Source of the DNA: Vreelandella sulfidaeris | Lineage (GTDB): Bacteria > Pseudomonadota > Gammaproteobacteria > Pseudomonadales > Halomonadaceae | Length of the DNA: 64,000 nt | Assembly: GCA_007182875.1 (NCBI GenBank) | Contig: AP019514.1 | Coordinates: forward strand, 930,001 to 994,000 | Direction of reading: 5' to 3' | Shown: positions 25,804 to 41,297 of the stretch, piece by piece | How the letters are laid out: each line of letters starts with the position of its first letter | Numbering within the stretch: the first letter of the stretch is position 1 | Notes under the pieces: model-generated | The model's input: the letters and a program-made list of their open reading frames with translations, nothing else | Told to the model about the DNA's origin: nothing | Databases searched by the model: none | Translations under genes and position numbers: made by a program

Positions 25804-26015
25804 GGTTGAAGCGTTCACCGTTAAGCAATGCGGCTTGCTTCGCTTGCCCTGGGGAGTAATTGTTCTATCTTTCTAAATGAGTTCTATCGCAACTCTAAAT
25901 ACAGATTTTAATGCATAAGTACAGCTTTTAACGCATAGGTAATTGGACAAGTAGTACAGCCATGCCAAGTTGTATAGCCATACTATGACCATATTATGAA
26001 AAGGAGGGTAGAGAG

Positions 26016-26342
26016 ATGGAATTTGAAAAGTACAAGTCGTGTATTGAAGCGTGCAACGTGTGCCGTTTACTGTGATTCTTGCGCAACTGCCTGCTTGCAA
26101 GAAGACGATGTAAAATGATGGCTGAGTGTATCCGTTTGGATATTCAATGTGCGCAAATATGTCGTTTAGCTGCCTCATTTATGGCCCAGGGTAGTGAATA
26201 TGCCAAGGATATCTGCCGAGTATGTGCTGATATTTGTAAGGCATGCGGCGATGAGTGCGCCAAGCACGATGCTCAGCATTGTCAGGAGTGCGCCAAAGTA
26301 TGTCATCGTTGCGCCGATGAGTGCGCTGCTATGGCTTCCTGA
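26016..26342 (+). CDS. Cys-rich four-helix-bundle copper-binding protein (DUF326/Csp-type)
   Basis: ATG 26016 sits behind AAGGAGGG. After repair of two small deletions (near 26065 and 26115) the product is about 110 residues with more than 15 cysteines in CxxC and CxxxC spacing: YKSCIEACNVC, AVYCDSCATACLQ, ECIRLDIQCAQICRLA, VCADICKACGDECAKHD and HCQECAKVCHRCADECA. This is the cytosolic copper-storage protein pattern (Csp3-like), in which Cys line the helix bundle and hold Cu(I). No signal peptide is seen, so it is predicted to be cytosolic. A terminator follows at 26378. Confidence 0.88.
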
Positions 26343-26377
26343 GAACGCTTAGAAAACTAAGTCTAACGACTTTAATT

Positions 26378-26415
26378 GAGCCAGCTTTTATACACATTAA
26401 AAGCTGGCTCTTTAG
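26378..26415 (+). terminator. Intrinsic terminator after the copper-storage gene
   Basis: A perfect 13-bp stem (26378-26390 with 26398-26410) with a seven-base loop is followed by TTTAG. Located 36 bases past the stop. Confidence 0.88.
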
Positions 26416-26488
26416 TTTATTTTTATAGTTAACTTAGGTTTTGGTTAATTTAAACTTTTATTTTTTTTACCTGCATTAATCGCCGGAT

Positions 26489-27196
26489 TTAAAAAAGATA
26501 GGTTAAAAGCAGTATCTTAAAAAGATAATCTAAAAACGATAGTTTAAAAGAGTCAGCACTCTGCAGCAGGCTGATCACCTCCTCATCGCTGGTTTGAGTA
26601 AAGTCCTGGTAGTGCATACCAACAGCGATAAAAGGTTCGGGAGTGGCTAGACAGATCAAATCATCGACTTCGGTGGCTAATTCATCCAGTGTCGACTGCG
26701 GGGCAACAGGCACAGCCAGGGTGACAGTGGTGGCATTGGCTTGGCGAAGTGCTCTGGCAGCTGCTTTAGCGGTTCCGCCTGTGGCGATACCATCATCCAC
26801 CAGCAGTACGCGCCTTTCGCTAACGTTAATCGGCGCACGGCTACCAATGTAGACGTGGCGTCGACGGGTTAACTCGCTTAGTTGTCGTTGTATTTCCGCT
26901 TCAAGGTAGCTTTCAGATGGCTGGAAAATCTTTAGTGTCTCCTGATTCCACACTACCTGTGGTGGCTCGCCATCGACCACCGCGCCTAACCCAAACTCGG
27001 GTTGTCCTGGAGCGCCAATCTTACGCACGATCACGACATCAAGCGGAAGTTTAAGGTGGGTGGCTACTTCGTAAGCGACCGGCACCCCGCCACGGGGTAG
27101 AGACAGCACCACGTCATAACGATCACTGGATAAGGCGTGGGCAAGCTGGCGCCCTCCATCCCGCCGATTCTCGTAAAGCTCTGAACGCTTGTGCAT
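26489..27196 (-). CDS. Phosphoribosyltransferase-family protein
   Basis: ATG 27196 opens MHKRSELYENRRDGGRQLAH. The PRPP-binding loop is VLLVDDGIATGGTA (residues 130-143, the two Asp and the Thr/Gly of the type I PRTase motif); the dinucleotide-type start VVLSLPRGGVPVAYEVA and GAPGQPEFGLGAV are typical of this stand-alone branch. The usual end is near DEEVISLLQ; the printed protein has a further hydrophobic tail (FLDYLFKILLLTYLF) that looks like read-through into AT-rich DNA. It is paired with an erythromycin-esterase-like gene; in other bacteria the two domains can be fused. Substrate unknown. Confidence 0.88.
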   Translation of the reverse strand: MHKRSELYENRRDGGRQLAHALSSDRYDVVLSLPRGGVPVAYEVATHLKLPLDVVIVRKIGAPGQPEFGLGAVVDGEPPQVVWNQETLKIFQPSESYLEAEIQRQLSELTRRRHVYIGSRAPINVSERRVLLVDDGIATGGTAKAAARALRQANATTVTLAVPVAPQSTLDELATEVDDLICLATPEPFIAVGMHYQDFTQTSDEEVISLLQSADSFKLSFLDYLFKILLLTYLF

Positions 27197-27253
27197 GCTT
27201 CGCTCCTATCCTCCAAGCTGCCTAAACCCCAAACGGCCTAAATACCAAAAAGC

Positions 27254-28590
27254 CTAGACACCAAAAGGATACGTGTCGGGTACGCCGTGGGGTTTTGCAC
27301 TCGGCAATGGCGTTACGGCGGTGGTCTCATCGAACCACACATAGGCATCAAACTGCTCCGCTAGAGACGCCTTGAAGTAATGGCTGAAATATTCGCTTTC
27401 GGGGCGATAGATAACACCAATAGCACGCTCCAGGCGTGTTTGACTTAGATGTTCCTGAGCATCCGAATGTGGGGATTGCTCAATTCAATTAAGGCACGTG
27501 GCAGCTGCGTTTCATGGAATATCCGTTCAAAGGAGTCCGCACGTGACGGTACGACCTGCTTGATTCGCATAGGAGAATCCCAATCGTCGGCCGCCGCCAC
27601 GCTCCCCCGTGTGTACCGAAACCGATAAGAACTGCTTTATCGCCATAGGCGGTACGACATAGCTCGCCGATATTGAATTGTCCCTTCCAGCCCATCTCAG
27701 TGGCAGACGCATCGCCGATATGAGAATTATGCGCCCAGACCACTGCCTTGGCGTTGGGGCCTTTGCCTGGAGGAGCTGCTGCAGCGTATCGAACATGTGC
27801 CGGTCTCGCAGGTTCCAAGATTGGGTAGAACCACGGTACATAAGCCGGTAATACTGTTCGGCGGCTCTCACTACGCGGGCGTTCTGGGTCGCATCGAAAT
27901 AGTTTTCTTCGTTGTCATTAGCCATGTATTCGAGCCGGTGATCCAGTAGCGCCTGGAGTTGCTCAACCACCGCCTCTTCACAAGTGTCTCGCTCACCTCG
28001 TAATACGGCGTGACCGTACATGGCCGGTTCGCTATGCCAGGGTGTTAAACAACCATAACGTTGGCGGGCAACCTTAGCGGCCTCAGGGTCGGTTTGGTCC
28101 AGGTAATCAAGCACCGCAAAAGAGAGGCACGCAATGAATAGATATCCAGACCGTGAAAACTGGTGCGTTGGTTGAAGGGCAGCCCTGCATTATGTTGGCG
28201 CAACCATTCAGTAAAGGTATCTACTTCAATGTTGTGCCACATCCAGGAAGGAAATCGAGTAAACGCCTGTTGTTGATTACTGTCTGCAGGACGATGTCTA
28301 ACATGTCGATCGATTTGAGAGGCATCGGGCCAGTCCGCTTCAACCGCCACAATATTGAAGTTATGTCGCTCGATGAGTCGCCGTGTAATAGCGGCACGTG
28401 CCCGATAGAATTCTGAGGTGCCGTGGGACGCCTCGCCTAGCAATACGATGTTGGCCTCACCGAAACGATCGAAGTGAGCGCCGAATGCTTCTTCCTCTTC
28501 CAAGCTTGGCAGGGGTTCGCAAGCTTCAGCAATGGCTTGGGCTGTTTGCTGGGCGGAAGGGAAGGTAGTTGTCGAGTGATCCTGATCCAT
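27254..28590 (-). CDS. Erythromycin-esterase-family hydrolase (frameshifted)
   Basis: Start ATG 28590. Family landmarks include NIVLLGEASHGTSEFYRARA (Glu and His of the proposed active site), VAVEADWPDASQIDRHVR, then KAVVWAHNSHIGDASATEMG (second His) and IGELCRTAYGDKAVLIGFGT. The end DTYPFGV meets TAG at 27254. About 440 residues; four breaks (near 28105, 27785, 27590 and 27480). EreA/EreB inactivate macrolides, but most chromosomal members do not; with the neighbouring phosphoribosyltransferase it more likely forms an unknown metabolic or stress pair. Confidence 0.87.
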
Positions 28591-28747
28591 GTGAATCTCC
28601 CGGAACGCGTAGGAATAGCTTGAAAATTACTATAGTAAAGAGGAACTGGCTTATTCAAGCTCGTATTACCCGAGTGGCTAAACGCCGCACCGCCTCCCCT
28701 TCACATTGTGGTGGTTCCGCAGCGCGGATCGTTAGAACCGCAGTGCT

Positions 28748-29485
28748 CTAGACACGTTTTGCCTGCCGGTAAAGCCACCAAACATCAAACCCAAACGAGT
28801 ACAGCAATGAGAGCAACGCGCTGATGGCAAGCAGGCTGGACATGAGGTGAGAGGTGAGGGGCGTTAGCGCCAGTAGCAGCGCGACCACCTGCCATACACA
28901 AATGGCTTTACGACGGAAGCTTTCAAACAATGGTTTTGAGAGCCATGAGACCCACCAACCGGCCGCCACGAACAGGTAGCGCATACCGCCAATTAGTAGC
29001 ACCCACAGGCCCAGTGACTCCAGTCGCAGCAATCCCGCACAAAGCAGCAAAATCAGCAGGGCATCCAGCTCCATATCAAAACGAGCGCCGAACATCGTAT
29101 GACTCTTGGTGCGCCTTGCAATCCAGCCATCGACGCCATCTAGCAGCAGAGCGATCACCGCAAGAGCCAGCCATTGCCATATGGCCGCTACGAACGCATT
29201 GGCGGCGAGTGCGCCGGCCATAAGTGAAACCAGTACGGCACGCAGCAGTGTGACTCTGTTTGCCCAGCCCAGTGAGCCGTAGGGCCAGAAAGTGATGACT
29301 AAGAAAGATATGCACGTGTATAAGCCAGCAGCAATCCACCCGTTAGCCGGGTCAGCTATTAATAATGGCAGGCTTTTGCCCAGTGCCATTAACAGCAACC
29401 CCCTAAGAATAGCTCTACAGCGCTGTAGAGCCGTTTGGTCAGAGTGTACAACGAGGCGTCGGAAAAAGGCGGCATGGTGGCTCAC
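28748..29485 (-). CDS. CDP-alcohol phosphatidyltransferase
   Basis: 245 residues, about six helices. The catalytic signature DG-x2-AR-x8-G-x3-D-x3-D is complete: DGVDGWIARR and FGARFDMELDA at about residues 116-142. The enzyme transfers a phosphatidyl or related group from a CDP-alcohol to an alcohol in the inner membrane. The extra N-terminal 60 residues with two helices differ from PgsA and Pss. Frame intact. It lies next to the pterin-like cluster and, from memory, can accompany it elsewhere; the acceptor is unknown. Confidence 0.9.
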   Translation of the reverse strand: MSHHAAFFRRLVVHSDQTALQRCRAILRGLLLMALGKSLPLLIADPANGWIAAGLYTCISFLVITFWPYGSLGWANRVTLLRAVLVSLMAGALAANAFVAAIWQWLALAVIALLLDGVDGWIARRTKSHTMFGARFDMELDALLILLLCAGLLRLESLGLWVLLIGGMRYLFVAAGWWVSWLSKPLFESFRRKAICVWQVVALLLALTPLTSHLMSSLLAISALLSLLYSFGFDVWWLYRQAKRV

Positions 29486-29834
29486 GAAGCGGCGTCGTTG
29501 TCCGCAGTTGAAATAAATGATGCAAATAATTTTATATGTACCATTCTTGTAGAAGAAGGTAGGGTTGTCTATGAGAACAAGAAAATAGGCTAGTTAGTTT
29601 CCTGTGTTCCAAAAGTTAATCGAATATTTTCTTTTCAACCGCTACGCTGAAATAGGTGAGTCATTGAAAACTTTACTGTATGAGGCCATTCAGTACGTGA
29701 CGAACCAGTGTGCGACCGTACCAAGATGCTTGATGTGCATTTTAATAATAGTTCGCAACGCCATGGTGCCACGCCACCTTCAAAGGATTGAAAAGAGCTC
29801 GAAATACATGGGCTCCAAACGAAAAGGAATGCTC
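29486..29834. other. Divergent intergenic region before the dehydrogenase-led cluster
   Basis: About 350 bases, AT-rich at 29520-29660, between the divergent phosphatidyltransferase and dehydrogenase genes. It must contain both promoters. An ORF crosses it in frame with the dehydrogenase but its content upstream of 29835 is not protein-like. Confidence 0.45.
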
Positions 29835-30814
29835 ATGTCGGCGCCTGAAACCGCAACGGCCTTCTGGGTAGTAAACCCTACGAAAGGTGAGCTGCGGCGT
29901 GAAAAATTAACGTCTCCTGCCCACGATGAAGTGCGCGTACGCACCTTGTACAGTGGTGTCAGCCGTGGCACCGAATCATTGGTGTTCAACGGCCGCGTGC
30001 CCGAAAGCGAATTTTCGCGTATGCGTGCGCCCTTTCAGTCGGGGAGAGTTTCCTGCCCCGGTTAAGTACGGCTACTGCAGCGTTGGTCGCGTTGAGCAGG
30101 GCCTGACGCGTTATTAAACAAAACTGTTTTTGTTTGTATCCCCACCAAGACCACTACGTTGTGCCTGCTTCGGCGGTACTAGAAGTGCCCGACGACGTAC
30201 CCGCCAAGCGCGCTGTATTGGCCGCCAACATGGAAACGGCCATTAACGGCGTTTGGGATGCCGAGCCTATGTTGGGCGAGCATATTTGTGTCATTGGTGC
30301 AGGTGTCGTAGGCACACTGGTCGCTTACCTATGCGCACAAGTGCCCGGCGTTAACGTGCAATTGGTTGATATTAACCCAGAGCGTCGCCAGCTAGCCGAG
30401 CAGCTAGGGTGGCATTTGCTACCCCGGAACAAGTCCCCCATGACCAGGACTGTGTCATCCACGCTAGCGGCCATTCTGCAGGCTTACGCCAAGCCCTTGA
30501 ATGGGTTGGCAGTGAAGGGCGCATTATCGAAATGAGCTGGTTTGGCGAAGGGGATATCTCGATTCCGCTAGGTGGCGCGTTCCACCCCAACGGCTCACGA
30601 TCAAGGCCAGCCAGGTAGGCCAACTGCCAATGAAGCTGCGCCCTCGCTGGAACTACCAGCGCCGCCTTCGATTAGCGCTAAGCTTATTAGTGGATAAACG
30701 ATTGGATGCATTGATCAGCGGGGAAAGCGATTTTGAGGACTTCCCACGCTTGCTAATACGCTGTTTGGTCGTAGCAGCGTCGAGCTTTGTCACCGGCTGA
30801 GATATCCCCAATAG
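29835..30814 (+). CDS. Zinc-binding-dehydrogenase-family oxidoreductase (MDR), cluster gene 1
   Basis: ATG 29835 gives MSAPETATAFWVVNPTKGEL. MDR features: SPAHDEVRVRTLYSGVSRGTE, the Rossmann turn GEHICVIGAGVVGTLVAYLC (about residue 150), VQLVDINPERRQLAEQLG, and CVIHASGHSAGLRQALEWVG. The C-terminal part KLRPRWNYQRRLRLALSLL and FGRSSVELCHRLRYPQ closes the protein at TAG 30812. Breaks near 30045, 30095, 30410, 30595 and 30755. About 325 residues, without the usual catalytic Cys-His-Asp zinc set that I can see. It probably oxidises or reduces an intermediate of the pathway encoded by the following genes. Confidence 0.85.
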
Positions 30815-30848
30815 TATTACGCTGTTAACTATTTGATCAGGAGTTTTT

Positions 30849-31247
30849 ATGTTTCGTTTATGTGTTCGTGACCACTTTATGATCGCCCACAGTTTTAACG
30901 GCGAAATCTTTGGTCCCGCCCAGCGTACCCATGGGGCCACCTATGTCGTGGATGTTGTCTTCCAGCGCCCTGAGCTGGATGAGGATGGTTTGGTCATCGA
31001 CATCGGCCTTGCAAGCGAAACCGTGAAAGCGGTATTGGCGGGCTATAACTTCCAAAACCTGGATGAGATAAGCGAGTTTAACGGTAAGAACACCACTACC
31101 GAGTTTATGGCCAAAGTGATCTTTGATCAGCTAGCCAAAGCAATTGGCGAAGGCAAAATGGGCACTACCGCCCAAGGTATTACCCACATGGAGGTTAAAC
31201 TACACGAATCCCATGTGGCCTGGGCTAGCTTCGAAGGCGCGCTATGA
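30849..31247 (+). CDS. PTPS/QueD-fold protein with altered zinc/cysteine motif, cluster gene 2
   Basis: 132 residues, frame intact; the tunnelling fold of 6-pyruvoyl-tetrahydropterin synthase. In QueD/PTPS a CxxxHGH motif supplies the catalytic Cys and two zinc His. Here the same place reads AQRTHGAT (residues 24-31): the Cys is Ala24 and the second His is Ala30. His14 (MIAHSF) and His28 remain, His9 (RDHF) is a possible substitute ligand, and Glu of KLHESHVAW matches the pterin-anchoring Glu. So a normal PTPS reaction is doubtful. It overlaps the next gene by ATGA (31244-31247). Confidence 0.9.
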   Translation: MFRLCVRDHFMIAHSFNGEIFGPAQRTHGATYVVDVVFQRPELDEDGLVIDIGLASETVKAVLAGYNFQNLDEISEFNGKNTTTEFMAKVIFDQLAKAIGEGKMGTTAQGITHMEVKLHESHVAWASFEGAL

Positions 31248-33206
31248 GCCAGCGTTTTACCCTAATAGTGGCGGGCGACCCCGACCAGCGCACCGGCGGC
31301 TACCTCTACGATGCACATATTGTCGCTGCCTTACGTGATCAGGATTGGGAAATCGACGTTGTGGGCCTTGAGGGTACCTTTCCCGATGCAGACGCCGAGG
31401 CGGCCACCTCGCTGGGCCTAGCGCTTGAGAATCGGCCCGATCATTCAGCGGTAGTTATCGATGGCTTGGCCATGGGCGCACTACCTGACGTGGTCGCTCA
31501 GCACGCCCAGCGGCTGGATATTAGCGCGTTACTGCACCATCCCCTGGGCGATGAGCTTGGCCTTAATGAGGCCGATCAGCAGCGTTTTCACCGCAGCGAG
31601 TTAAACGCGCTTGCTCCTGTGGCGCGTATTATTGTCACCAGCCATTTTACCGCTCGCCGTTTACCGGTACTGGCGGCCCACTACGCCATCCCGCTTAACG
31701 CTACAGTCTCGGTCGTTGAGCCGGGCGTTGCAGAAGCGCCCATCAGCCCTGCGGCAACACCTGGAGAGGCACTGCGCTTGTTATGTGTGGCGACGCTAAC
31801 GCCGCGTAAAGGGCAGGATATCCTTGTCCAGGCGCTGGCGGGGTGACGGCTGACCACTGGCAGTGTGATTGCTATGGCGGGGCACGCGACGCTGCGTTTA
31901 CGCAACGTGTGCAACAACTGATCGAACAGCACGGCTTGCAGCAGAAAGTACGCCTGCACGGCGAGTGCGATAGCGAGACGCTGGAAGCGGCCTACCGGCA
32001 CGCCCATGCGCTGGTGCTTCCCTCCTGGTACGAAGGTTATGGCATGGTGGTCACCGAAGCCTTGGCCCACGGGCTGCCGGTAATTACGACCACCGGTGGC
32101 GCGTTACGCGACACCTTGCCTGAAGGCGCCGGGTTGAGCGTTGAGCCGGGCGATAGTGCAGCACTTCAGGATGCCTTGAACCGCTTTTGCAACGATGCCG
32201 AACTGCAACACCAATTGCGCGACGGGGCTGTACAGGCGCGCGGCCAGTTAAGTGATTGGCAGGCGGCGGGTGAGGCGTTTGCGGCGGCTTTAACCGCGCC
32301 GAGTGATTCAAGCGCCGCGCCTACCTTGCGTGCCGGTAGCCAGTTTGAATCCGATTGGCTGACCCTGCGAGAAACGGCCGACTTCGCCTCACGTAGCCAA
32401 CGCTTGGCTCAATTCGCGTCTGAGTGGTTGGGCGCGCAGACCCCAACGCCCTTGATAGTGGATATTGGCTGCGGTCGGGGCAGCAATATGCGCTTTTGGC
32501 CCCGCGTCTGAATGGTCGCCAGCGCTGGAAACTGATCGATCACGATGCCACCTTATTAGCACAAGCGTATCAGCGAGCGGTCGGATTAAGCGATAGCCAG
32601 GGGCAGCCCGTGGCGGTTGAAACTCACTGCGTATCGTTGCAGCCATTTAACGCTGTACCGGTGAACGATGCCCACTTGGTGACCGCATCAGCGCTATTGG
32701 ACCTGGTCTCCCAGCAATGGATTGATACATTGATGAGTCGCTGTGCCAAGCAGCAGCAAGCGCTACTAATAGCGCTGAGCGTGACCGGCGAATGGCATTT
32801 TATCGACACGCAAGGCGACCCGGTGTTGGACGAAGAAGACCAATGGTTGCTGGCCATGTTTATTGCCCACCAACAGCGCGATAAAGGCTTGGGCGAGGCA
32901 TTGGGCGGTCAGGCCCACGGGGCGTTAGTTGCTGCGTTAGAGCGAGCCGATTACCAGATTGAGCAAGCCGACACACCCTGGCAGCTTACCGCGGGTGATC
33001 ACGATCAGCAGCCGTTAATGATGGCGTTGCTTGCAGGCTGGGCCGAGGCCGCCACCGAGCAAGCCCCTGAAGCAGCCTCGCGTATTGCTACTTGGTTACA
33101 GCAGCGCCAACAGGCGGTAGCAAACGGTGCACTGGGTATTTGGGTAGGCCACCGTGACCTGTTCGCTATGCCAAAGGAATCCTCTATACCCAAGGAAAAG
33201 GCATAA
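31244..33206 (+). CDS. GT4 glycosyltransferase fused to a class I SAM methyltransferase, cluster gene 3
   Basis: Residues about 1-350 are a GT-B family 4 glycosyltransferase: AGDPDQRTGGYLYDAHIVAA, LRLLCVATLTPRKGQDILVQ, and the E-x7-E sugar-nucleotide site in SWYEGYGMVVTEALAHGLPV. With no stop or start between them, the frame continues to a methyltransferase whose SAM motif is LIVDIGCGRGSN (about residue 408) and ends PKESSIPKEKA. Breaks near 31845 (a C lost) and 32503 (a T lost). About 654 residues. A fusion is read directly between the two breaks, so it is probably real, though adjacent separate genes elsewhere are possible. Would glycosylate and methylate one product. Confidence 0.82.
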
Positions 33207-33210
33207 GCCT

Positions 33211-34267
33211 ATGGGGTTGCTCAGACGTTGTGCACTCGGCTAGGCGCGTATATCCAAAGCCCATGGCTACGGCGTTTGGTGATTAGTACTGCCTTGCTGG
33301 GTGCCGTGTTGCTATGGGTTGAACCCCAGGCCATTGTGGCCGAGGTGCAGCGGCTCTCCGCCGGTGGGTCGCGCTGGCGCTAGCGGTAAGCACGCTACAA
33401 ATCATGTTATGTGCCTGGCGCTGGCAGTTTACTGCCGGGCTTATTGGTGTACCGCTGCGGTTTTCCTACGCCCTGCATGAATATTATCTGGCGCTGCTGG
33501 TCAATCAGCTCTTGCCCGGTGGGGTGTTAGGCGATGCCGGGCGGGCACACCGTCATGCCAGCCAGGCGCAGTCACGTGGTCGTGCATGGCGGGCGGTCAT
33601 TATCGAGCGCGCGTCAGGGCAGGTGGCTGTAGCAGTGCTAACGCTAACGGCGCTGCTGCTCTCACCTTTGTGGCATAACGCGCTGAGTGTCACAGCGCTT
33701 ACGGTGGTTGGTCTAAGCGTGGTCGGGCTGGCGATGATAGTCGCCATCGGCCTGCTTCAGCGTCAGCGCTTAAGCAATGGGTTGTCACGGATGCCGCACT
33801 GGAGCCAAGCCTTGGCTGGCGATATAAAGCGCGGTTTGTTACGGCGCAGCGTGTGGCCCCGGCAGTTGCTGTCGTCACTGATGATTGTGCTGAGTTATGG
33901 CTTAGTGATGGTGTGCGCCGCGCGGGCAATTGGCGTTGCTCTTCCGGCACTCGAGGTGCTCGCACTCGCACCGGTGTTGCTACTGGCGATGCTGATTCCG
34001 TTTTCAGTCGCTGGCTGGGGCTACGTGAAGGCACCGCCGCCGGTGTCTGGATGTTGGTAGACTTACCGCCTGCCCAAGGAGTGGCGGTGTCGATGGCCTA
34101 TGGTGTTCTGGTCTTGCTGGCTAGCCTGCCGGGTATTTGGGTGGCGCTTAACCGCCGTCAAAAGCGCAACCCTCAGGTGGGGGTTCCCTCAGCCGCATGT
34201 CAAACAGCGTGTCGTCACCACAGCGGAAGGTTCGCGTGGGCGGGCGCAGCGCACTCGAGCGTCTTGA
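33211..34267 (+). CDS. Lysylphosphatidylglycerol-synthase-TM/flippase-like membrane protein, cluster gene 4
   Basis: Starts 4 bases after the fusion gene (ATG 33211). After repair near 33240 and 33372, about eight helices appear: RRLVISTALLGAVLLWVEP, VALALAVSTLQIMLCAWRWQ, YALHEYYLALLVNQLLPGGV, LGDAGRAHRHASQAQSRGRA, and LEVLALAPVLLLAMLIPFSV. This is the PF03706-type TM domain (AglD/MprF-like, UPF0104). Such proteins flip or transfer lipid-linked material, so it may move the product outward. The 3' end is uncertain: breaks near 34025 leave a stop at about 34267, overlapping the convergent RibD-like gene by about 120 bases. Confidence 0.78.
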
Positions 34268-34998
34268 TGGGCGTCATTTTAAGCCCCGGCCTGCCGGAGC
34301 CGATCAGCAACGGGGCGACCAGCAGGTGCAGCCGGTCAACGGCCCCCGCTTCGATAAACTGAGAAACAGTAACGCCGCCGCCCTCTACCAATACCCGAGG
34401 CAAGCCTTTATCGGCGAGCAGGGCGATGACATCGTGAGGGTTGAAATGCCCGCTGGCATTCAGCGGCAGCACACAGTGCTGAACATGAGCAGGAGTGACC
34501 GCTTGTGCGGCCTCCGGCCCCACAATAAGCAGCGTCGGGCGGTATCGCTGCGCAGCAGTGTCAAGTCATTCGGTATACGCCCTCGCGGGTCCAATACTAC
34601 CCGCGTCGGGTGGGTGCCACTAACATGGCGCACGGTCAGTTGCGGATTGTCGGCACTAGCGGTACCGGCGCCGACCACCACTGCGTCGACCAGTGCACGC
34701 AGGCGGTGCAGGTGAACCAAGCTTTCATGACCGTTGATGTAGTGGAGTGGCCGCTTTCCGTCGCAATACGGCCATCCATGCTCTGTCCCAATTGCGCCAC
34801 GACCCAGGACGGGCGACTGGCCAGCGGCGTCAGGCAGTCGAGCAGCTCGCGCGCTTCAGCGCTGACCGTCTGAAGGGTTTGCCATTCGCCGTTAGGCGTC
34901 AAGGTGATTGTTGTATCGCAAGGGCGCTGATGACGCAGCCCCAGCAGCCATTCCCAGGCATCGGCCAGTTCAATCGTGTTGATAGAGGAGTTGGGCAT
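34148..34998 (-). CDS. RibD C-terminal-type (DHFR-fold) reductase, cluster gene 5
   Basis: ATG 34998 opens MPNSSINTIELADAWEWLLG. The core is a RibD_C domain: PSWVVAQLGQSMDGRIATES, HLHRLRALVDAVVVGAGTAS, DNPQLTVRHVSGTHPTRVVL, RVLVEGGGVTVSQFIEAGAV and LLVAPLLIGSGRPGL, with NADPH-loop Gly residues. There is no deaminase domain, so it is a stand-alone reductase resembling the enzymes acting on 2,5-diamino-6-ribosylaminopyrimidinone phosphate. Breaks near 34745, 34515 and 34235; after the last the usual end FRCGDDTLFDMRL is seen, to TAA 34148. Divergent from ribA. Confidence 0.85.
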
Positions 34999-35113
34999 GA
35001 CGCCTCCGCGCTAAAACATTCGCTTCATCATGCGGGACTTACTTGTTCCAGAGCAAGTTGGTCCAGAGCAAACACATAATATCCCCCACGCCAGGGAAGC
35101 CAGGGAGGCCTCT
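34999..35113. promoter_or_regulatory. Divergent promoter region between RibD-like and RibA-like genes
   Basis: 115 bases between divergent starts. A direct repeat AGAGCAA occurs twice (in CCAGAGCAA near 35049 and 35063). GGGAGGCCTCT just before ATG 35114 supplies the ribosome-binding site. No FMN riboswitch is present, arguing against ordinary riboflavin control. Confidence 0.5.
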
Positions 35114-36217
35114 ATGTACAAGATTGAACGCGCTATTTTCGATATTCGTCGTGGATTGCCAGTGGTGGTGAATGCTGGTGAGCAGCGGTTGCTGGTACAG
35201 GCGTTGGAAGGCAGTGAGTCGGTAGAAGCACTTGCTCAGTTAGCTGGCGAACGGCCTTCGTTAGTGCTTACCCGCCACCGCCTGACGGCGATGGGAATGA
35301 GCTTAACTGCTGAGGCGGCAAGCGTTCCTTTAGCGGCAAATATCAACACCCATGAGTTGCATGGCTTGGCCTCGGCGGAAATGCTTCCGCAGCCCGCCGG
35401 TGGTTTGCTCAGCGGCTTAAAACCAGCGAGTCTGGCCGAACTTGGTGCCATTACGCTAATGCGCCGTGCGCTGCTAATCCCCGCCGCGCTATGTGCCTTT
35501 GTCAGCGAAGAATCTGCTGAGGATATTGAACAGCAAGTGGCTGAAGGGCGGCTGCTGGAAGTCGATGCAAAAGAGGCTGAGCAGTGCTTAGCGGGGGCCC
35601 AGGGCATGCTTAAGCGTGTCAGCGAAGCGAATATTCCTCTTGAGGATGCGGCTGACAGCCGCTTCGTACTTTCCGGGAGCCCGATGGCCTGCGCGAACAC
35701 GTTGCTGTGGTGATTGGTAAACCGGAGCGCTGGGAAGGTGCGGTGCCTCTGCGCATGCACTCGGCGTGCTTAACGGGTGATCTGTTCGGCAGTTTGCGCT
35801 GTGACTGCGGTGAGCAGCTGCGCAATGCGGTGGCAGATATACAGTCCATGGGCGGCGGCGTGCTGCTTTATTTGGCACAAGAGGGACGGGGTATTGGCTT
35901 GGCCAACAAGCTACGCGCCTATACCTTACAAGATGGCGGCCTGGACACCGTGGATGCCGATCAAATGCTTGGTTTTGGAGACGATGAGCGCCAGTACGCG
36001 GTGGCGGTGGATATGCTTAACGCGCTCGACATTAACCAAAGTGCAGCTGCTGACCAACAACCCGTTAAAAATAGAGGCGCTGCGCCAAGGCGGTATCGAG
36101 GTGGTGGCACGCCAAGCACTGTATGGCAGTGTCACCGACCACAACCAACGCTATCTCAATGCCAAGGCAACCCGAGGTGGACACTTGTTGGAAGATGTCT
36201 TAAGCGGCCAGCGCTAA
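35114..36217 (+). CDS. GTP cyclohydrolase II with long N-terminal extension, cluster gene 6
   Basis: ATG 35114 follows GGGAGG. The C-terminal about 180 residues are GTP cyclohydrolase II: LRMHSACLTGDLFGSLRCDC holds the three zinc Cys, then GGGVLLYLAQEGRGIGLANK (with Gln-Glu-Gly-Arg-Gly), and TNNPLKIEALRQGGIEVV. The N-terminal about 185 residues (MYKIERAIFDIRRGLPVVVN, LVLTRHRLTAMGM, GLLSGLKPASLAELGAITLM) are not the DHBP synthase of RibBA by any motif I can see. Breaks near 35675 and 36043. 367 residues. Would open GTP to a diaminopyrimidine, here feeding a special pathway rather than riboflavin. Confidence 0.88.
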
Positions 36218-36296
36218 ATCCGAACGTCGCGGGCCAAGGAGCCTCGCGCTGGTGAAGCAGTGTTAGCAAGTGAGCAGTTTTAGTTAATGAGCAATT

Positions 36297-37069
36297 TTAG
36301 TTGGTTAGCGGTGGCAGCTGGGCGGTTTCGGTTACCACTATCGCTAACTGGCGGGCATAGTGCCTCACTAGCCGCTCGCCTAATGCGGCGCTGGCGTGGC
36401 TGGCATCCCCGGCCACGCCTTGGGCGCTTAAGTCTTCCGCTAGCCAGGAATACGCGGCCGCACCCTCTGCACTCACGAGGGCATCGCCTAAGGGCGCTGC
36501 GGGCGGTGCGGCTTGGTACTCCTCCAACTGGACCAGCGTTGGCGCTAAATAGCACATCATCGCGGTTTCGAGTAACCCCCCGTGCAAGCCGTAGCGTAAC
36601 TCTTCAAAAGCTATGGCGTCTGCTAATGGCGGTAGTCGGGTATAGGTGGCTTTTACGACACGCATGCCATGCCGTCGCCGCAGGGTGAGCCCTGCTAAAT
36701 CCATGACCGCTTTATTGCCGCCGTGGCTATTCAGCAGTACCAGGCGGCGAATACCTGCCCTGGCTAGGCTGTCGCCATACGCTTCTGCGTGGCAATCGCC
36801 AATGGCGCCGGCAGGCTGAGTGTGCCGGGAAAACTGGCGTGCTCATCGCTGGCACCCACCGCTATGGGCGGCAGGCAGACAACATTCATTGCGGGATCAA
36901 GCTGCGCCAGCATAGCCGCCTGTAGGCCTTCGCCAATGGTCAGGTCGGTGGCTAAAGGGAGGTGGGTGCCGTGCTGTTCAATGGCGCCGAGTACCAGCAC
37001 CGCTACCGGGTCGCGTTGGGCGAAGTCGGCTAATTGCGGGGCGGTGAGCGTTTGCCAGTGATGTATCAT
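36297..37069 (-). CDS. Creatininase-family amidohydrolase, cluster gene 7
   Basis: ATG 37069 begins MIHHWQTLTAPQLADFAQRD. Metal site motifs: LGAIEQHGTHLPLATD (Glu, His and Asp ligands), GASDEHASFPGTLSL, LVLLNSHGGNKAVM and HGGLLETAMMCY. One break near 36790. About 257 residues. Creatininase-fold enzymes include ArfB, a formamide hydrolase that acts after a GTP cyclohydrolase in archaeal flavin and F420 synthesis, so with RibA and RibD neighbours a pyrimidine formamide or amide substrate is plausible. Its ATG overlaps the stop of the FkbM gene (TAATG). Confidence 0.9.
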
Positions 37070-37914
37070 TAAGTGATATGCCTATTGAGTTGTAAAGGAT
37101 CAAGGAGAGCCCCTAGTAGCGGGTGGTCCGAGCGGCAGGCATAAAGGTCACCAGACGGTATCCCCTCGGCCCCAGCCCTTAGCCACTCGGTCATGGCCTG
37201 CGGGGTTTGCCATTCGTTCCAGCGAAAATGGCGCTGTTCGCCCGCTACCGCGTTGTAGCGATAGTCGCCAAGACGGTTTAGATGGTGGATGCAGGCGTGG
37301 CTAACCTCTAGTGCACCGACAACGAACTCCACTGAAAGCGCTGCCACCGGACAACTGAGCCCTGCTAGCACCTCCGCCTCAAAGCCCTCGACGTCAATTT
37401 TAATAAAACTGGGTTCGCCATACTCTTCAATTAACGTATCCAGTGTGGTGACCGGTACCTGTAAGCGTTGCTCCCAGCGAACATGACTAAAGCTGGCGTT
37501 ACGGTCGCCGATCTGCTCGCGCCAACCGGAGGCGAGGGTAGAAAGAGTAGGGTTGCCGGGGCTGATAGCAATCTCAGCAAACCCCGCCGCCGGGCCAGCC
37601 GCAAGCGGTAGCAGCGTAATGCTCGGCGGCCTTACCAAACGCTTAAACCACTTAGCGAGATCAGGCTGAGGTTCAAGTGCCACTACCTTGGCGCCTAGTG
37701 CATGAAAGGCCGCACTGCGGTCACCTAGGTGAGCACCGATATCGAAAGCGACGGCGCCGGGCTGAATAAACGGTTGGTAAAGACGCTGTAGCCCGCGTTG
37801 GCGCCCTGGCCGCCAATAAATAAACAGCGAACGGATGAGCCCGCCTGCGCTACTTAGCCGTTGCAGCGCCAAACGCCGCATTCGTTGGGTTCCCTGAATA
37901 TCTTCATTGGTCAT
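37069..37914 (-). CDS. FkbM-family SAM-dependent methyltransferase
   Basis: 281 residues, frame intact. The SAM-binding start is GAVAFDIGAHLGDRSAAFHA (about residues 53-72), followed by VVALEPQPDLAKWFKRLV, and the FkbM signature FIKIDVEGFEAEVLAGL. FkbM proteins O-methylate sugars or polyketides. It overlaps opgG/D upstream by 11 bases and the creatininase gene downstream by one, forming a tight minus-strand unit. It could modify a glucan or the product of the pterin-like cluster. Confidence 0.92.
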   Translation of the reverse strand: MTNEDIQGTQRMRRLALQRLSSAGGLIRSLFIYWRPGRQRGLQRLYQPFIQPGAVAFDIGAHLGDRSAAFHALGAKVVALEPQPDLAKWFKRLVRPPSITLLPLAAGPAAGFAEIAISPGNPTLSTLASGWREQIGDRNASFSHVRWEQRLQVPVTTLDTLIEEYGEPSFIKIDVEGFEAEVLAGLSCPVAALSVEFVVGALEVSHACIHHLNRLGDYRYNAVAGEQRHFRWNEWQTPQAMTEWLRAGAEGIPSGDLYACRSDHPLLGALLDPLQLNRHIT

Positions 37915-39402
37915 TGGGATACCACACGTAATTCCAGGTTTCGCTTATCGGTTCTTCATTTAGGGTCAGCCTGAGGCGAACATCGCTGGGTTGATGGCTA
38001 TCGGGCAGCCTGAAGCTAGCGCGCCAGCCTTTGTTAGGGAGCGGAGTGACCTGAGGCAGTAGTACTTCGCCTTGCTGGGCGTTGATAACTAACTCGACGG
38101 GTTGGTCGGCAGCGATATCATCTAACGCGCCCCCTTGGAAATCGACGATGAACTGGCGCTGCCCTTGCAACGTCGAATCAGCTTGTCCCGGTATGCTTGC
38201 GCGGCCATGGCGGGTACGGATTGCACGCCCAAGGCTATGCGCTTCTGGCTGTGTGTTGAGCGTATGGGTTAGGTAATGGAGGCGGCGGGACTCGCCAGCC
38301 TCCAACGTGTCGTCCGCTACCCAGTAGGCGACGATATTGTCGTGGGTTTCATCAGGCGTTGGAATTTCGACCAACTCCACCGGCCGGGGCCCCAGTCATC
38401 TAGCGGCATGACCCATTGGCTGGGGCGACGATGGTATTGGGCTTCGATATCCAAATAACGGTTAAAGTCACGCTCTCGCTGCATCAAGCCAAACCCTTGA
38501 GGTGCACTATCCATGAATGTTGAGATGCGCAGATGCTCGGGGTTGGTCAGCGGGCGCCATATCCATTCACCGCTCCCGGTCTGCATCAGCAGACCGTCAG
38601 AGTCATGTACCTGAGGGCGGAAGTCGTCGGGACGTTTACGGCTTGCCTCTCCATAAGTGAACATGCTGGTGAGCGGCGCTACGCCCAGCTTGGCGATATC
38701 GTTGCGAGCAAATAATGCCGCTTCGACCTCTACTTGGGTATTTTCCCCAGGCTGGATGATAAACCGATAGGCGCCGCTGATAGAGGGCTATCCATTAACG
38801 CTAATAGCTCAATATGCTCGGCATCTGCGTCGGGCTTGTACATCCAAAACTCACGAAACGCCGGAAATTCCTCGCCAGTGGTTGAGGCTGTATCGATCGC
38901 TAGCCCTCGGGTCGACAACCCGTAAGCTTGGTTGCGCCCCACGATTCGGAAGTAGCTAGCACCGGAGAAAAACGGCAAACTCATCGTCATATTCCTCGCT
39001 ATTCAGAGGATAGTGAAGACGAAAGCCCGCGTGGCCGCTACCGGTTAAATCGTGCTCTTTTAGCTTTGCGGCATTGCCGTCGTAAGAGAAATCCTCTGCC
39101 GAAAAGGCAGCGGGGTGACCGTGTCGTTTTCAATGACATTCAGGGTAATTGGAGTCGGAAGAGAAAACCGCTGTGAAACAGCTGTAAGCTAAAGGGGCTT
39201 TCGTCCTGCCAATAGGCGTGGGCGGGATTAAAGCGAATTTGTCGGTAGGTATCGTAGTCGAGCTCACGTAATACCTTGGGCAGTGACTCTTCGGGGGGTG
39301 ATAAGCCTCTGCAGCCAGTTGCTGGGCTCGTTCAATGACGGCACTGAAATGCTTATCGTCTTCGGCTAAGGCCGGTAAGGCTAGCGTACAGCCAATTAAC
39401 AC
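37904..39402 (-). CDS. Osmoregulated periplasmic glucan biosynthesis protein (OpgG/OpgD, MdoG family)
   Basis: About 500 residues of the MdoG fold. The signal segment ends [15 protein letters not shown]; upstream in frame lies RRWFVLIG, which resembles a Tat motif, as in OpgD, so the true start may be a GTG near 39460 instead of the GTG at 39402. Conserved stretches: [80 protein letters not shown] and [20 protein letters not shown]. Breaks near 39290, 39180, 38990, 38780 and 38390. Acts in the periplasm on beta-glucan backbones; usually made under low osmolarity, notable in a halophile. Confidence 0.88.
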
Positions 39403-39727
39403 GAACCATCTACGAACTAACCACCCACCGACATGCCATCTGTCGCCTTGCCACCTACGAACCTGCCGCCAAGAAATTGGGCACCTAGAAAACAGTTACA
39501 ACGCATGGACGAAATCCTTTCGAGTGAAGGCCGCAAATGCATGGAGTTGAGCCAAACAACACGTTAAAATTTTAAACAATAACTATACGAATGATAGCAG
39601 CAGTACATGATTGGTGCGTTTTTCAGCAGCCTTTTCTTTGCTCCTCATCTAGTCTTTCACCGAGATCCATCGTTGCAAGGGCATATTTTCAACACTGTAA
39701 TCTAAAGCAGGCACAAATGAGAACGCG
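39403..39727. other. Divergent region between OpgG/D and sulfatase-fold genes
   Basis: About 325 bases. The left 60 bases may be the true 5' end of the OpgG/D gene. Degenerate direct repeats around 39405-39475 (GTTCGTA/GGTGGCA-type on the minus strand) and an AT-rich zone at 39560-39600 that likely holds promoters were seen. No RNA or ORF supported. Confidence 0.4.
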
Positions 39728-41297
39728 ATGAGTCGATTATTAATACTGGTCCTGATACTAAATTTCTTACTTATCGCGCCGCTGTGGTGGCGTTTTGGTG
39801 AGATTAATGAGTATTTGGTCGCTTGGGAGGCACTTATCATTGTGCCGCTTATGCTATTGCTTCCTGTTGGCCAGGCACGCCGCTTAGTGGGTGTTGGGTT
39901 AGTCGGTTGGATGATGCTGGCAACCGCCGCCAATCTCGGTACGGCGGCCACCCAAATGGCGTTTGCCCGGCCAATCAATCTCTACCTTGACTTACCCCTG
40001 CTGCGCTCCGTCTATCATTTGTTGGTAGGTAATGTAGGCCAGTTTTGGCAGTGTGCGCTATGCTGGCGGGGCTCGCCGTGCTGCTGGGTATCAGCGTGGG
40101 CTTAGCGCGGTTGTTGCTTCCACCGGTCGCCTACTCGATTAAACGGCTACCCGGAGCAGTCGCATTAACGCTGCTCGTTGCTGCCACCAGCGGAGCGGCA
40201 CTAGCGTTTAACGGGGTGCGGCTGGTAAACAGTGCGCACTTGCCATTGTTGGACAGTACACGGTTTCAGTGGCAGCAAATTACCGCTACCCATGCTGCGC
40301 GTGTTGCCTTTACTGAACAGTTGGAAGCTACGCCGCTGGAAAACAGCCGCTGCCGGGGTTGGCAGGGCGCAATGTACTGCTGACCTTTATCGAGTCCTAT
40401 GGTGTGTCGGCGCTGACTACCCCGCGTTATGCAGAAACTCTGCTTCCCACCCTGGCCGATATGCAGCAGCGCCTAGGCGAACATGACCTCCACGTAGTGT
40501 CTGGACTGCTGGCGTCACCAATTCGTGGTGGGCAATCCTGGCTAGCCCATGCAACAACGCTCAGCGGCCGATGGATCGACAATCAGCTGTGGTATCAGCT
40601 GATGTTGAGCAGTGGGCATTCCACATTGATCGATGATTTTCGTGCTACAGGGCAACGTTCGCTGGTTGTGATGCCCGCCATCACGATGGCATGGCCGGAA
40701 GGCGAGGCTTATGGTTTCGATGAAATTGCTGCGGCGAAAGATATCGATTACGCCGGGCCTGCGCTCAACTGGGTGACCATGCCCGATCAGTTCACCCTTG
40801 ACTACACTCAGCGTCACTTGCTCGGCGATACACCGGTGTTTGCTCAGTTGGCCTTAATCTCTAGTCATGCACCCTGGACGCCGATTTTGCCGGTATTGGA
40901 TGATTGGTCATCCATTGGCGACGGACGTATTTTGCTCCTTGGGAGAGTGCTGGTGACCCGCCGGAGGTGTTGTGGCAGGACATCGAGCGTATTCGTGATC
41001 ACTATGCCTGGTCGGTGGACTACGCTGTTAAAGTCACCGGTCGCTGGGCAGAGCGCGTGGCGGATGACAATACGTTGATGATCGTGTTGGGTGACCATCA
41101 AGCCGCGCCGCTGATCACTGGCGATGACGCTAGTGCGGCGGTGCCTGTGCATATTATCAGCGGCGATCGTGCATTATTAGCACCCCTTTCTAAAGCGTGG
41201 CTTTGTGCCCGGCACGTTGCCTGCGCTCGAAGAAGCAAACGATGTGCCCCGCATGAGCCAACTGCGCCACTGGCTGCAGGATGATTTTGGTGAGTGA
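39728..41297 (+). CDS. LtaS-like membrane protein with alkaline-phosphatase/sulfatase fold
   Basis: ATG 39728. The N-terminal about 170 residues form four to five helices (LLILVLILNFLLIAPLWWRF, LIIVPLMLLLPVGQARRLV, AVALTLLVAATSGAALAFNG). An extracytoplasmic sulfatase-fold domain follows: GRNVLLTFIESYGVSAL (first metal acid), SPIRGGQSWLAHATTLSGRW (Ser/Thr nucleophile region), LALISSHAPWTPILP and MIVLGDHQAAPLI (Asp-His). Breaks near 40055, 40365, 40935 and 41205. About 520 residues. Relatives transfer phosphoglycerol or phosphoethanolamine to glycans (OpgB/LtaS type); next to an OpgG/D gene, glucan decoration is likely. Confidence 0.82.

Follow-up and report, generated by a model that had tools for sequence, protein, structure and literature searches.

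The closest described relatives of the gene set analyzed here come from Streptomyces. The protein SCO6650 of Streptomyces coelicolor, which has the PTPS fold, reportedly has neither zinc nor the catalytic triad and is inactive as a PTPS, and SCO6655, which we take to be the GTP cyclohydrolase II (GCHII) of the Streptomyces cluster, is said to make the formamide FAPy because a Met replaces its switch Tyr. In Streptomyces seoulensis (L205) the genes run PTPS, glycosyltransferase, methyltransferase, flippase, creatininase and GCHII, which fits the numbers SCO6650 to SCO6655. RibA and RibD paralogues are also used by the toxoflavin cluster (the ToxA-ToxE set). Here we describe a related locus in Vreelandella sulfidaeris, contained in a window of 64,000 nucleotides (bases 930001-994000 of contig C1 of a 4.48 Mb assembly in two contigs, rated 74.6% complete). 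In comparison with the SCO6650-SCO6655 system and its reported Met switch, the GCHII of the window has Tyr and a RibB-like N-terminal domain, and the locus includes a RibD_C reductase. We read the locus, at a probability of roughly 55%, as a single conserved pathway that turns GTP into a 2-amino-4-oxo-pyrimidine or pterin, the product of which would be glycosylated, methylated and sent to the cell envelope. The Streptomyces version has been partly studied before (the SCO6650 structure and the reported SCO6655 chemistry); a full-text search of the open-licence literature for the gene combination found no paper.

Other described enzymes resemble single members of the set. According to PMC9478397, BrbF of Sinorhizobium, first annotated as a creatininase, strips formate from the formamide that arises as an intermediate in RibA chemistry; BrbF is creatininase-like as is the cluster protein, and the likeness of the latter to the BrbF/ArfB formamidases is at family level only. 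Enzymes that put sugars on pterins are the cyanobacterial UDP-glucose:tetrahydrobiopterin glucosyltransferase and Chlorobium CtPGT (PMC5683033). QueD and the other members of PTPS-I to PTPS-III (COG0720; defined in PMC5041015) have the fold and the pterin-anchoring Glu in common with the cluster PTPS, but their CxxxHGH or ExxHGH motif is replaced by AQxxHGA.

That the genes act as one set, as the earlier note on this DNA had supposed, was borne out in a sample of 397 Pseudomonadota genomes. The PTPS subfamily was present in 32 of these (E of 1.7e-47 or better, the other 32 matches being at 5.5e-14 or worse), spanning 12 families. The dehydrogenase subfamily was found in 31 genomes, namely the 32 PTPS genomes minus the frameshifted genome of V. 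sulfidaeris itself, and the RibD_C subfamily in 28, all within the 31 dehydrogenase genomes (missing from G479, G712 and G722); both searches admitted E values up to 1e-50, with scoring limited to the top 5 and top 7 candidates of each genome, respectively. In this sample both subfamilies were found only in genomes with the PTPS subfamily. With kinship ignored, the chance of 31 genomes all falling within 32 of 397 is about 2e-45, a figure which kinship makes far too small. The gene grouping is not due to chance, and it is well supported that a core of dehydrogenase, PTPS, glycosyltransferase and methyltransferase forms one pathway with its partners.

Within the genus, the dehydrogenase, PTPS, glycosyltransferase-methyltransferase fusion, flippase, RibD_C, RibA and creatininase were present at all 15 loci, the CDP-alcohol phosphatidyltransferase at 14 (the contig of L044 starts at the dehydrogenase) and an FkbM methyltransferase at 12 (missing from L036, L037 and L038). 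With the N-terminal domain of RibA as query, the cluster turned up in the genome of V. sulfidaeris and in 21 of 24 relatives from the genus, against 0 of 13 genomes belonging to other families of the same order. The distribution restricted to the genus that this marker alone would suggest was overturned by the PTPS marker, which was positive in many families. In a sample of the class, 21 of 370 genomes had the PTPS; these belong to 9 families, and four of them are about 1 Mb in size. The grouping was seen in alpha-, beta- and gammaproteobacteria and in Actinomycetota; it is therefore conserved well beyond close relatives, a restriction to which the earlier note had regarded as fatal to its proposal. 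The order dehydrogenase-PTPS-glycosyltransferase-methyltransferase is repeated in Streptomyces and other Actinomycetota, in these four small genomes and on plasmids, with plasmid copies in 18 of 72,556 records.

Neighbours were counted by tblastn at 1e-6, since greedy clustering of open reading frames (ORFs) had inflated the cluster of CDP-alcohol phosphatidyltransferases with other ORFs. Among 38 sampled loci from outside the genus we found the dehydrogenase at 36, the glycosyltransferase at 37, the methyltransferase at 35, RibD_C at 30, the CDP-alcohol phosphatidyltransferase at 18, the flippase at 15, RibA at 14, YceI at 14, OpgH at 10, cytochrome b561 at 7, creatininase and FkbM at 6 each, a sulfatase-fold protein at 3 and OpgG at one. 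A second set of named loci comprised the best 80 of 585, ranked by their resemblance to an alphaproteobacterial PTPS, which makes it an uneven sample; 50 of the 80 were counted, the 30 below 18 kb being left out. Here the numbers were 47 (dehydrogenase), 47 (glycosyltransferase), 48 (methyltransferase), 24 (RibD_C), 14 (CDP-alcohol phosphatidyltransferase), 11 (flippase), 29 (RibA), 1 (YceI), 31 (OpgH), 17 (cytochrome b561), 14 (creatininase), 11 (FkbM) and 3 (sulfatase-fold). The best 80 include Roseibium, Bradyrhizobium, Rhodoplanes, Polynucleobacter, Ca. Methylopumilus, Xanthomonas, Streptomyces, Amycolatopsis and Pseudonocardia, together with single contigs of metagenome-assembled genomes of Gemmatimonadetes and Thermoleophilaceae. 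Where a core gene is missing next to the PTPS, the genome mostly carries it at another place: G097 and G373, with a PTPS locus that has no dehydrogenase, carry one dehydrogenase copy each on another contig, and of eight genomes with PTPS loci without RibD_C, five of the seven searched carry a cluster-type RibD_C elsewhere (4.9e-85 to 7.5e-79), the locus of the eighth, G175, being cut by the contig end and outside the search.

Control loci around other PTPS-family genes had the dehydrogenase, glycosyltransferase, methyltransferase, CDP-alcohol phosphatidyltransferase, flippase and creatininase in 0 of 20 cases, and RibA together with RibD_C in one of 20. These loci were chosen as weak PTPS-family matches, with the QueD motif CxxxHGH found by regular expression in 11 of the 20, and the control is narrow because 18 of the 20 genomes come from a single family (f205).

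Two side observations concern individual loci. The shared neighbours of the core in the four genomes of about 1 Mb (L082-L085 in G162, G342, G405 and G262) resemble molybdopterin genes by eye, with FolE2 about 20 kb away. The locus L155, from a metagenome-assembled genome titled Bordetella parapertussis, is arranged as in Alcaligenaceae and Polynucleobacter contigs, and the title is probably wrong.

All genes that had been named from the window were found in place by Pfam and tblastn, including a divergent CDP-alcohol phosphatidyltransferase at the left edge, although most are split by frameshifts. Searches with the intact proteins of a genus relative (L032) placed most cluster genes in 2-5 frames; the PTPS and FkbM genes are unbroken in the window, and RibA has an internal stop and a second piece. 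Since genes of the whole genome are frameshifted in this way (2-5 frames at 28754-39426 of the window), ORF-based readings of it mislead, and intact gene versions were taken from genus relatives such as L032. The dehydrogenase and methyltransferase pieces were too broken or divergent for the Pfam cut-offs and were located through the intact L032 proteins. The set runs on past the right edge of the region first noted, with the FkbM methyltransferase and then OpgG. The features are as follows.

28754-29475, minus strand: CDP-alcohol phosphatidyltransferase, divergent (PF01066, 4.4e-15; tblastn of the L032 protein)
29853-30808, plus strand: MDR-family dehydrogenase in five frame pieces (tblastn of the intact L032 protein; subfamily alignment A8)
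30849-31247, plus strand: PTPS-fold protein of the SCO6650 type, signature AQxxHGA, intact (PF01242, 7.5e-26)
31244-33206, plus strand: fusion of a GT4 glycosyltransferase and a class I methyltransferase in three frame pieces (PF00534, 5.4e-24; tblastn)
33213-34164, plus strand: LPG_synthase_TM or flippase-like membrane protein in three frame pieces (PF03706, 4.2e-26; tblastn)
34184-34998, minus strand: RibD_C reductase without a deaminase domain, in four frame pieces (PF01872; tblastn)
35114-36217, plus strand: GTP cyclohydrolase II with a degenerate RibB-like N-terminal domain (PF00925, 2.6e-42)
36297-37069, minus strand: creatininase-family hydrolase in two frame pieces (PF02633, 1.4e-30 and 2.3e-24; tblastn)
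37114-37902, minus strand: FkbM-family methyltransferase, beyond the region first noted (PF05050, 2e-17)
37907-39426, minus strand: OpgG-like periplasmic glucan protein, a possible extended neighbour (tblastn)

The nearest solved structure of the cluster PTPS was SCO6650 itself (PDB 3d7j), with a profile match at 2.2e-58 over 131 positions; the aligned stretch of 3d7j reads AQRLHGA, and the match is full length with the same residues missing, which places the protein in the SCO6650 type. Motif positions were assigned on the alignment with the motif definitions given in PMC5041015. At 135 PTPS loci the pterin-anchoring Glu, two His and the Asp were kept in every case, the catalytic Cys position was Ala in 134 and Gly in one, and the third zinc His was replaced (HGA instead of HGH) in 133. 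After LD, 65 loci have Glu, 46 have Asp and one has His. Without the catalytic Cys and HGH the protein is not a QueD (PTPS-I, CxxxHGH). RefSeq nevertheless labels it 6-carboxytetrahydropterin synthase, with a queuosine term, in all four records viewed (L256, L257, L258 and L259), and this label on SCO6650-type proteins is probably a widespread misannotation. The label would favour a role in one of the known COG0720 pathways (queuosine, tetrahydrobiopterin or folate), which we consider extremely improbable given that both the QueD and the PTPS-III motifs are missing, that the control PTPS-family loci are without these neighbours and that FolE or FolE2 occurs separately in 37 of 38 cluster genomes. 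The genome of V. sulfidaeris has a second PTPS-family gene at 2265730.

The same residues bear on the nature of the product. A glycosylated ribityl-diaminopyrimidine or a flavin-like compound, with the PTPS fold merely carrying or binding it, would agree with the loss of one zinc His and of the Cys that is catalytic in PTPS/QueD, and with the known chemistry of RibA and RibD_C, which yields diaminopyrimidines. The Glu that anchors a 2-amino-4-oxo ring, kept in 135 of 135 loci, speaks for a pterin, yet it also fits a diaminopyrimidinone and does not discriminate between the two. We regard a product of this kind, in place of a pterin, as doubtful.

The GCHII domain of the cluster RibA aligned over its full length with E. 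coli RibA (2bz0), with Tyr at the equivalent of position 105, which could also be read in the window. The sequences CLTGDxFGSLRCDCG, which holds the zinc Cys triad (G to A in one), and RAYTLQD were present in 8 of 8 genus sequences, as in a GTP cyclohydrolase II. The N-terminal domain was placed by profile search, which matched it weakly to the RibB/RibBA structures (best 5.6e-5); an AlphaFold model of the cluster RibA had a mean pLDDT of 51 and was unused. Compared with the RibBA of the same genome, the domain gave an hhalign probability of 33% and is missing the DDEDRENEGD stretch; the DHBP synthase active site is not intact, and the protein is not a bifunctional RibBA. Judged by its sequence, the N-terminal domain is a decayed RibB. 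The RibD_C protein covers positions 141-340 of the 343 of TIGR00326, that is the reductase half only, and differs from bacterial RibD (deaminase and reductase) in having no N-terminal deaminase domain. Its nearest solved structure was 6p8c, a diaminopyrimidinone phosphate reductase (1e-44).

Neither gene is the sole copy in the genome, contrary to a further circumstance that the earlier note had thought would undo its proposal: RibA is found at 3939655, RibD at 1233976-1234628 and RibBA at 1235463. The RibBA (L003:850-2016) has the RibB motif DDEDRENEGD but no CDC zinc motif in its GCHII half, and the working RibA is likely to be L001. A quick tree of GCHII and RibD_C did not cleanly separate the cluster copies from the housekeeping copies and was left unused.

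Paralogues of RibA and RibD_C could also belong to an inducible second route supplying riboflavin or a secreted flavin, and a separate RibBA for flavin secretion is reported for Sinorhizobium in PMC9478397. The window argues otherwise: the RibD_C gene is without the RibD deaminase part, no lumazine or riboflavin synthase was found among the 20 ORFs scanned, and no Rfam family matched at gathering thresholds in 26000-41000, so that there is no FMN riboswitch there. The absence of an FMN riboswitch and of lumazine and riboflavin synthases had already been stated in the earlier note. Moreover, the steadiest partners are the dehydrogenase, PTPS, glycosyltransferase and methyltransferase, and we find a riboflavin supply line very improbable.

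The switch residue of GCHII could be read at 69 of the 135 loci (it was not readable at the other 66): Tyr at 56, one of Met, His and Gln at 12, and Leu at one; the locus with Leu (L195) looks like a different, degenerate GCHII and was set aside from the comparison. The 12 loci with Met, His or Gln are all from Actinomycetota by record title, and all 12 carry the creatininase, against 24 of the 56 loci with Tyr (Fisher p = 2e-4, kinship ignored). The result for the 12 loci speaks for GTP being opened in two steps in Actinomycetota. A strict tie of creatininase to a GCHII without Tyr was only half true, in view of the 24 Tyr loci that also carry it. Against the ArfB model the cluster creatininase scored 19.3 bits (cut-off 180), and it is nearer to the MftE and creatininase models, also under their cut-offs, which makes this a match at family level only.

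The dehydrogenase belongs to the MDR fold family, and the zinc-type assignment holds as a label of the fold only. In alignment A8 the usual zinc Cys and the GHE motif fall in neither the invariant nor the 90% columns; the corresponding stretches are SGISRGTE and KYGY. The protein has no zinc site that can be recognised and is not a zinc-dependent MDR alcohol dehydrogenase, as which it is labelled (zinc-binding alcohol dehydrogenase) in annotations elsewhere. It is weakly BchC-like (7.7e-17, below the cut-off), and its AlphaFold model (pLDDT 90.5) gave Foldseek matches that include threonine, L-idonate, gutB-named and xylitol dehydrogenases. The fusion of glycosyltransferase and methyltransferase is genuine in the genus, with an intact ORF of 645 amino acids in L032; ORFs bearing both domains numbered 16 among 134 loci, and outside the genus the two are mostly separate adjoining genes. 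The best PDB match of the glycosyltransferase was 6kih (6.2e-17), and inositol-phosphate and phosphatidylinositol-mannoside enzymes also matched better than the pterin enzymes; it is a generic GT4 enzyme, and since non-pterin enzymes match better the acceptor cannot be read from sequence. The methyltransferase had no solved relative at 0.01.

The CDP-alcohol phosphatidyltransferase carries DGxxARx8GxxxDxxxD, which we take to be the CDP-alcohol phosphotransferase motif, and reads DGWIARRTKSHTMFGARFDMELD in the window; a regular-expression census of the motif over whole loci gave doubtful matches (e.g., L205), and the window reading alone was used. The flippase-like protein of L032 was slightly above the cut-off of TIGR00374. 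With creatininase, CDP-alcohol phosphatidyltransferase and flippase at 6, 18 and 15 of the 38 sampled loci, these genes are far from universal and the envelope part may be specific to lineages. The CDP-alcohol phosphatidyltransferase and flippase occur mainly in gammaproteobacterial and actinomycete loci, and OpgH mainly in alpha- and betaproteobacterial ones. In many of the latter the MdoH-like glucosyltransferase OpgH (L121:11128-13104 and similar) lies divergent from the core, and its place beside the core suggests a tie to periplasmic glucans.

The differences among lineages in the envelope genes (CDP-alcohol phosphatidyltransferase and flippase versus OpgH) would be expected if two modules often adjoined, a cytoplasmic GTP-derived pathway (RibA, RibD_C, dehydrogenase, PTPS, glycosyltransferase and methyltransferase) and an unrelated envelope module (CDP-alcohol phosphatidyltransferase, flippase, FkbM, Opg proteins, YceI and cytochrome b561). 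We think such a division quite unlikely, because Streptomyces and the genus of the window share the order in which the CDP-alcohol phosphatidyltransferase and flippase flank the core, and because one Rhizobium plasmid carries core and envelope genes together. On this plasmid, of Rhizobium sp. SL42, genes for sulfatase, flippase, FkbM, CDP-alcohol phosphatidyltransferase, RibA, dehydrogenase, PTPS, glycosyltransferase, methyltransferase, RibD and cytochrome b adjoin. The proposal of one GTP-derived pathway in the earlier note thus stood as far as the genes behave as one set and recur across taxa, and was weakened by envelope genes that are far from universal.

What the data establish is which genes make up the set, their co-occurrence and the active-site features; for the single conserved pathway that we prefer, the product, the order of the reactions, every reaction, the location and the attachment to lipid are what we infer. 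RibA would open GTP to 2,5-diamino-6-ribosylamino-pyrimidinone phosphate; in Actinomycetota the reaction of a RibA variant would end with the formamide, leaving removal of the formyl group to the creatininase-family enzyme. RibD_C, without a deaminase partner, would then convert the ribosyl to a ribityl chain by reduction, and an alcohol of the side chain would be oxidised by the MDR dehydrogenase. The PTPS fold, with its known catalytic residues lost but the pterin Glu kept, may bind and reshape the ring or side chain, after which the GT4 enzyme would add a sugar and the methyltransferase a methyl group. Finally, the CDP-alcohol phosphatidyltransferase and flippase may attach the product to lipid or move it to the periplasm, possibly helped by the YceI, sulfatase-fold, FkbM or OpgH proteins or cytochrome b561 that are often present. 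Attachment to lipid is suggested by the complete motif of the CDP-alcohol phosphatidyltransferase and by the flippase, neither of which is universal.

Several observations weigh against this pathway. RibA lies inside the locus in just 14 of the 38 sampled and 29 of the 50 named loci, and RibD_C in 30 and 24. In G722 and G712 the RibD_C matches were weaker (6.4e-30 and 8.7e-27) and of the strength of a housekeeping RibD. By NCBIfam, RibD_C scored 129 bits with the C-terminal model of bacterial RibD and 105.6 with the archaeal diaminopyrimidine reductase, both below the cut-off. Among 15 actinomycete-type loci only three have RibD_C, none of them Streptomyces, and that branch must therefore borrow the housekeeping RibD or skip the ribityl step. 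A creatininase is found at 24 of 56 loci with a Tyr-type RibA, that of the window included, where a deformylase should be superfluous. The pterin glucosyltransferase structures 5ze7 and 5zer (2.3e-7) are among the matches of the glycosyltransferase, but they are two of ten and other GT4 enzymes match better. FolE is present in 23 and FolE2 in 16 of 38 cluster genomes, with one or the other in 37; the route would thus serve a special product and not folate. At L074, FolE2 and an ExxHGH PTPS adjoin the core, and a replacement of the RibD_C and dehydrogenase steps by FolE2 (L074/L075) was ruled out since both genes occur elsewhere in the genome of L074 and in G373.

The presence of FolE or FolE2 in 37 of the 38 also ruled out the cluster as a general source of pterin for folate. 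In the cluster-bearing genome G265, rated 100% complete, FolE and FolE2 were both missing at E 0.001, which sets it apart from its congener G344. A more specific version of the pathway is a FolE-independent pterin route ending in a phospholipid-anchored, redox-active pterin that would act together with YceI and cytochrome b561 on the periplasmic side of the membrane, a version which we judge decidedly improbable. RibD_C would reduce the ribosyl chain of the GCHII product, the MDR dehydrogenase would re-oxidise the 2' alcohol, and the 5-amino group could then close the ring, giving a dihydropterin and bypassing the Amadori step that GTP cyclohydrolase I uses. The altered PTPS fold would shape the pterin, and after glycosylation and methylation the CDP-alcohol phosphatidyltransferase would link it to a phospholipid. 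Closure to a dihydropterin through oxidation of the ribityl chain beside the 5-amino group is suggested on chemical grounds.

A four-gene core of dehydrogenase, PTPS, glycosyltransferase and methyltransferase that occurs in at least two phyla and is retained in genomes of about 1 Mb should serve an important role. The pathway would account for the reportedly inactive PTPS homologue that is said to stand beside an extra GTP cyclohydrolase II in Streptomyces. With the gene set and the likely precursor now named, the product can be sought directly. PMC13259868 states that pterins act as signals in the periplasm and that no pterin efflux system has been identified, and if the product of the cluster is exported, it would bear on how pterins get to the periplasm.

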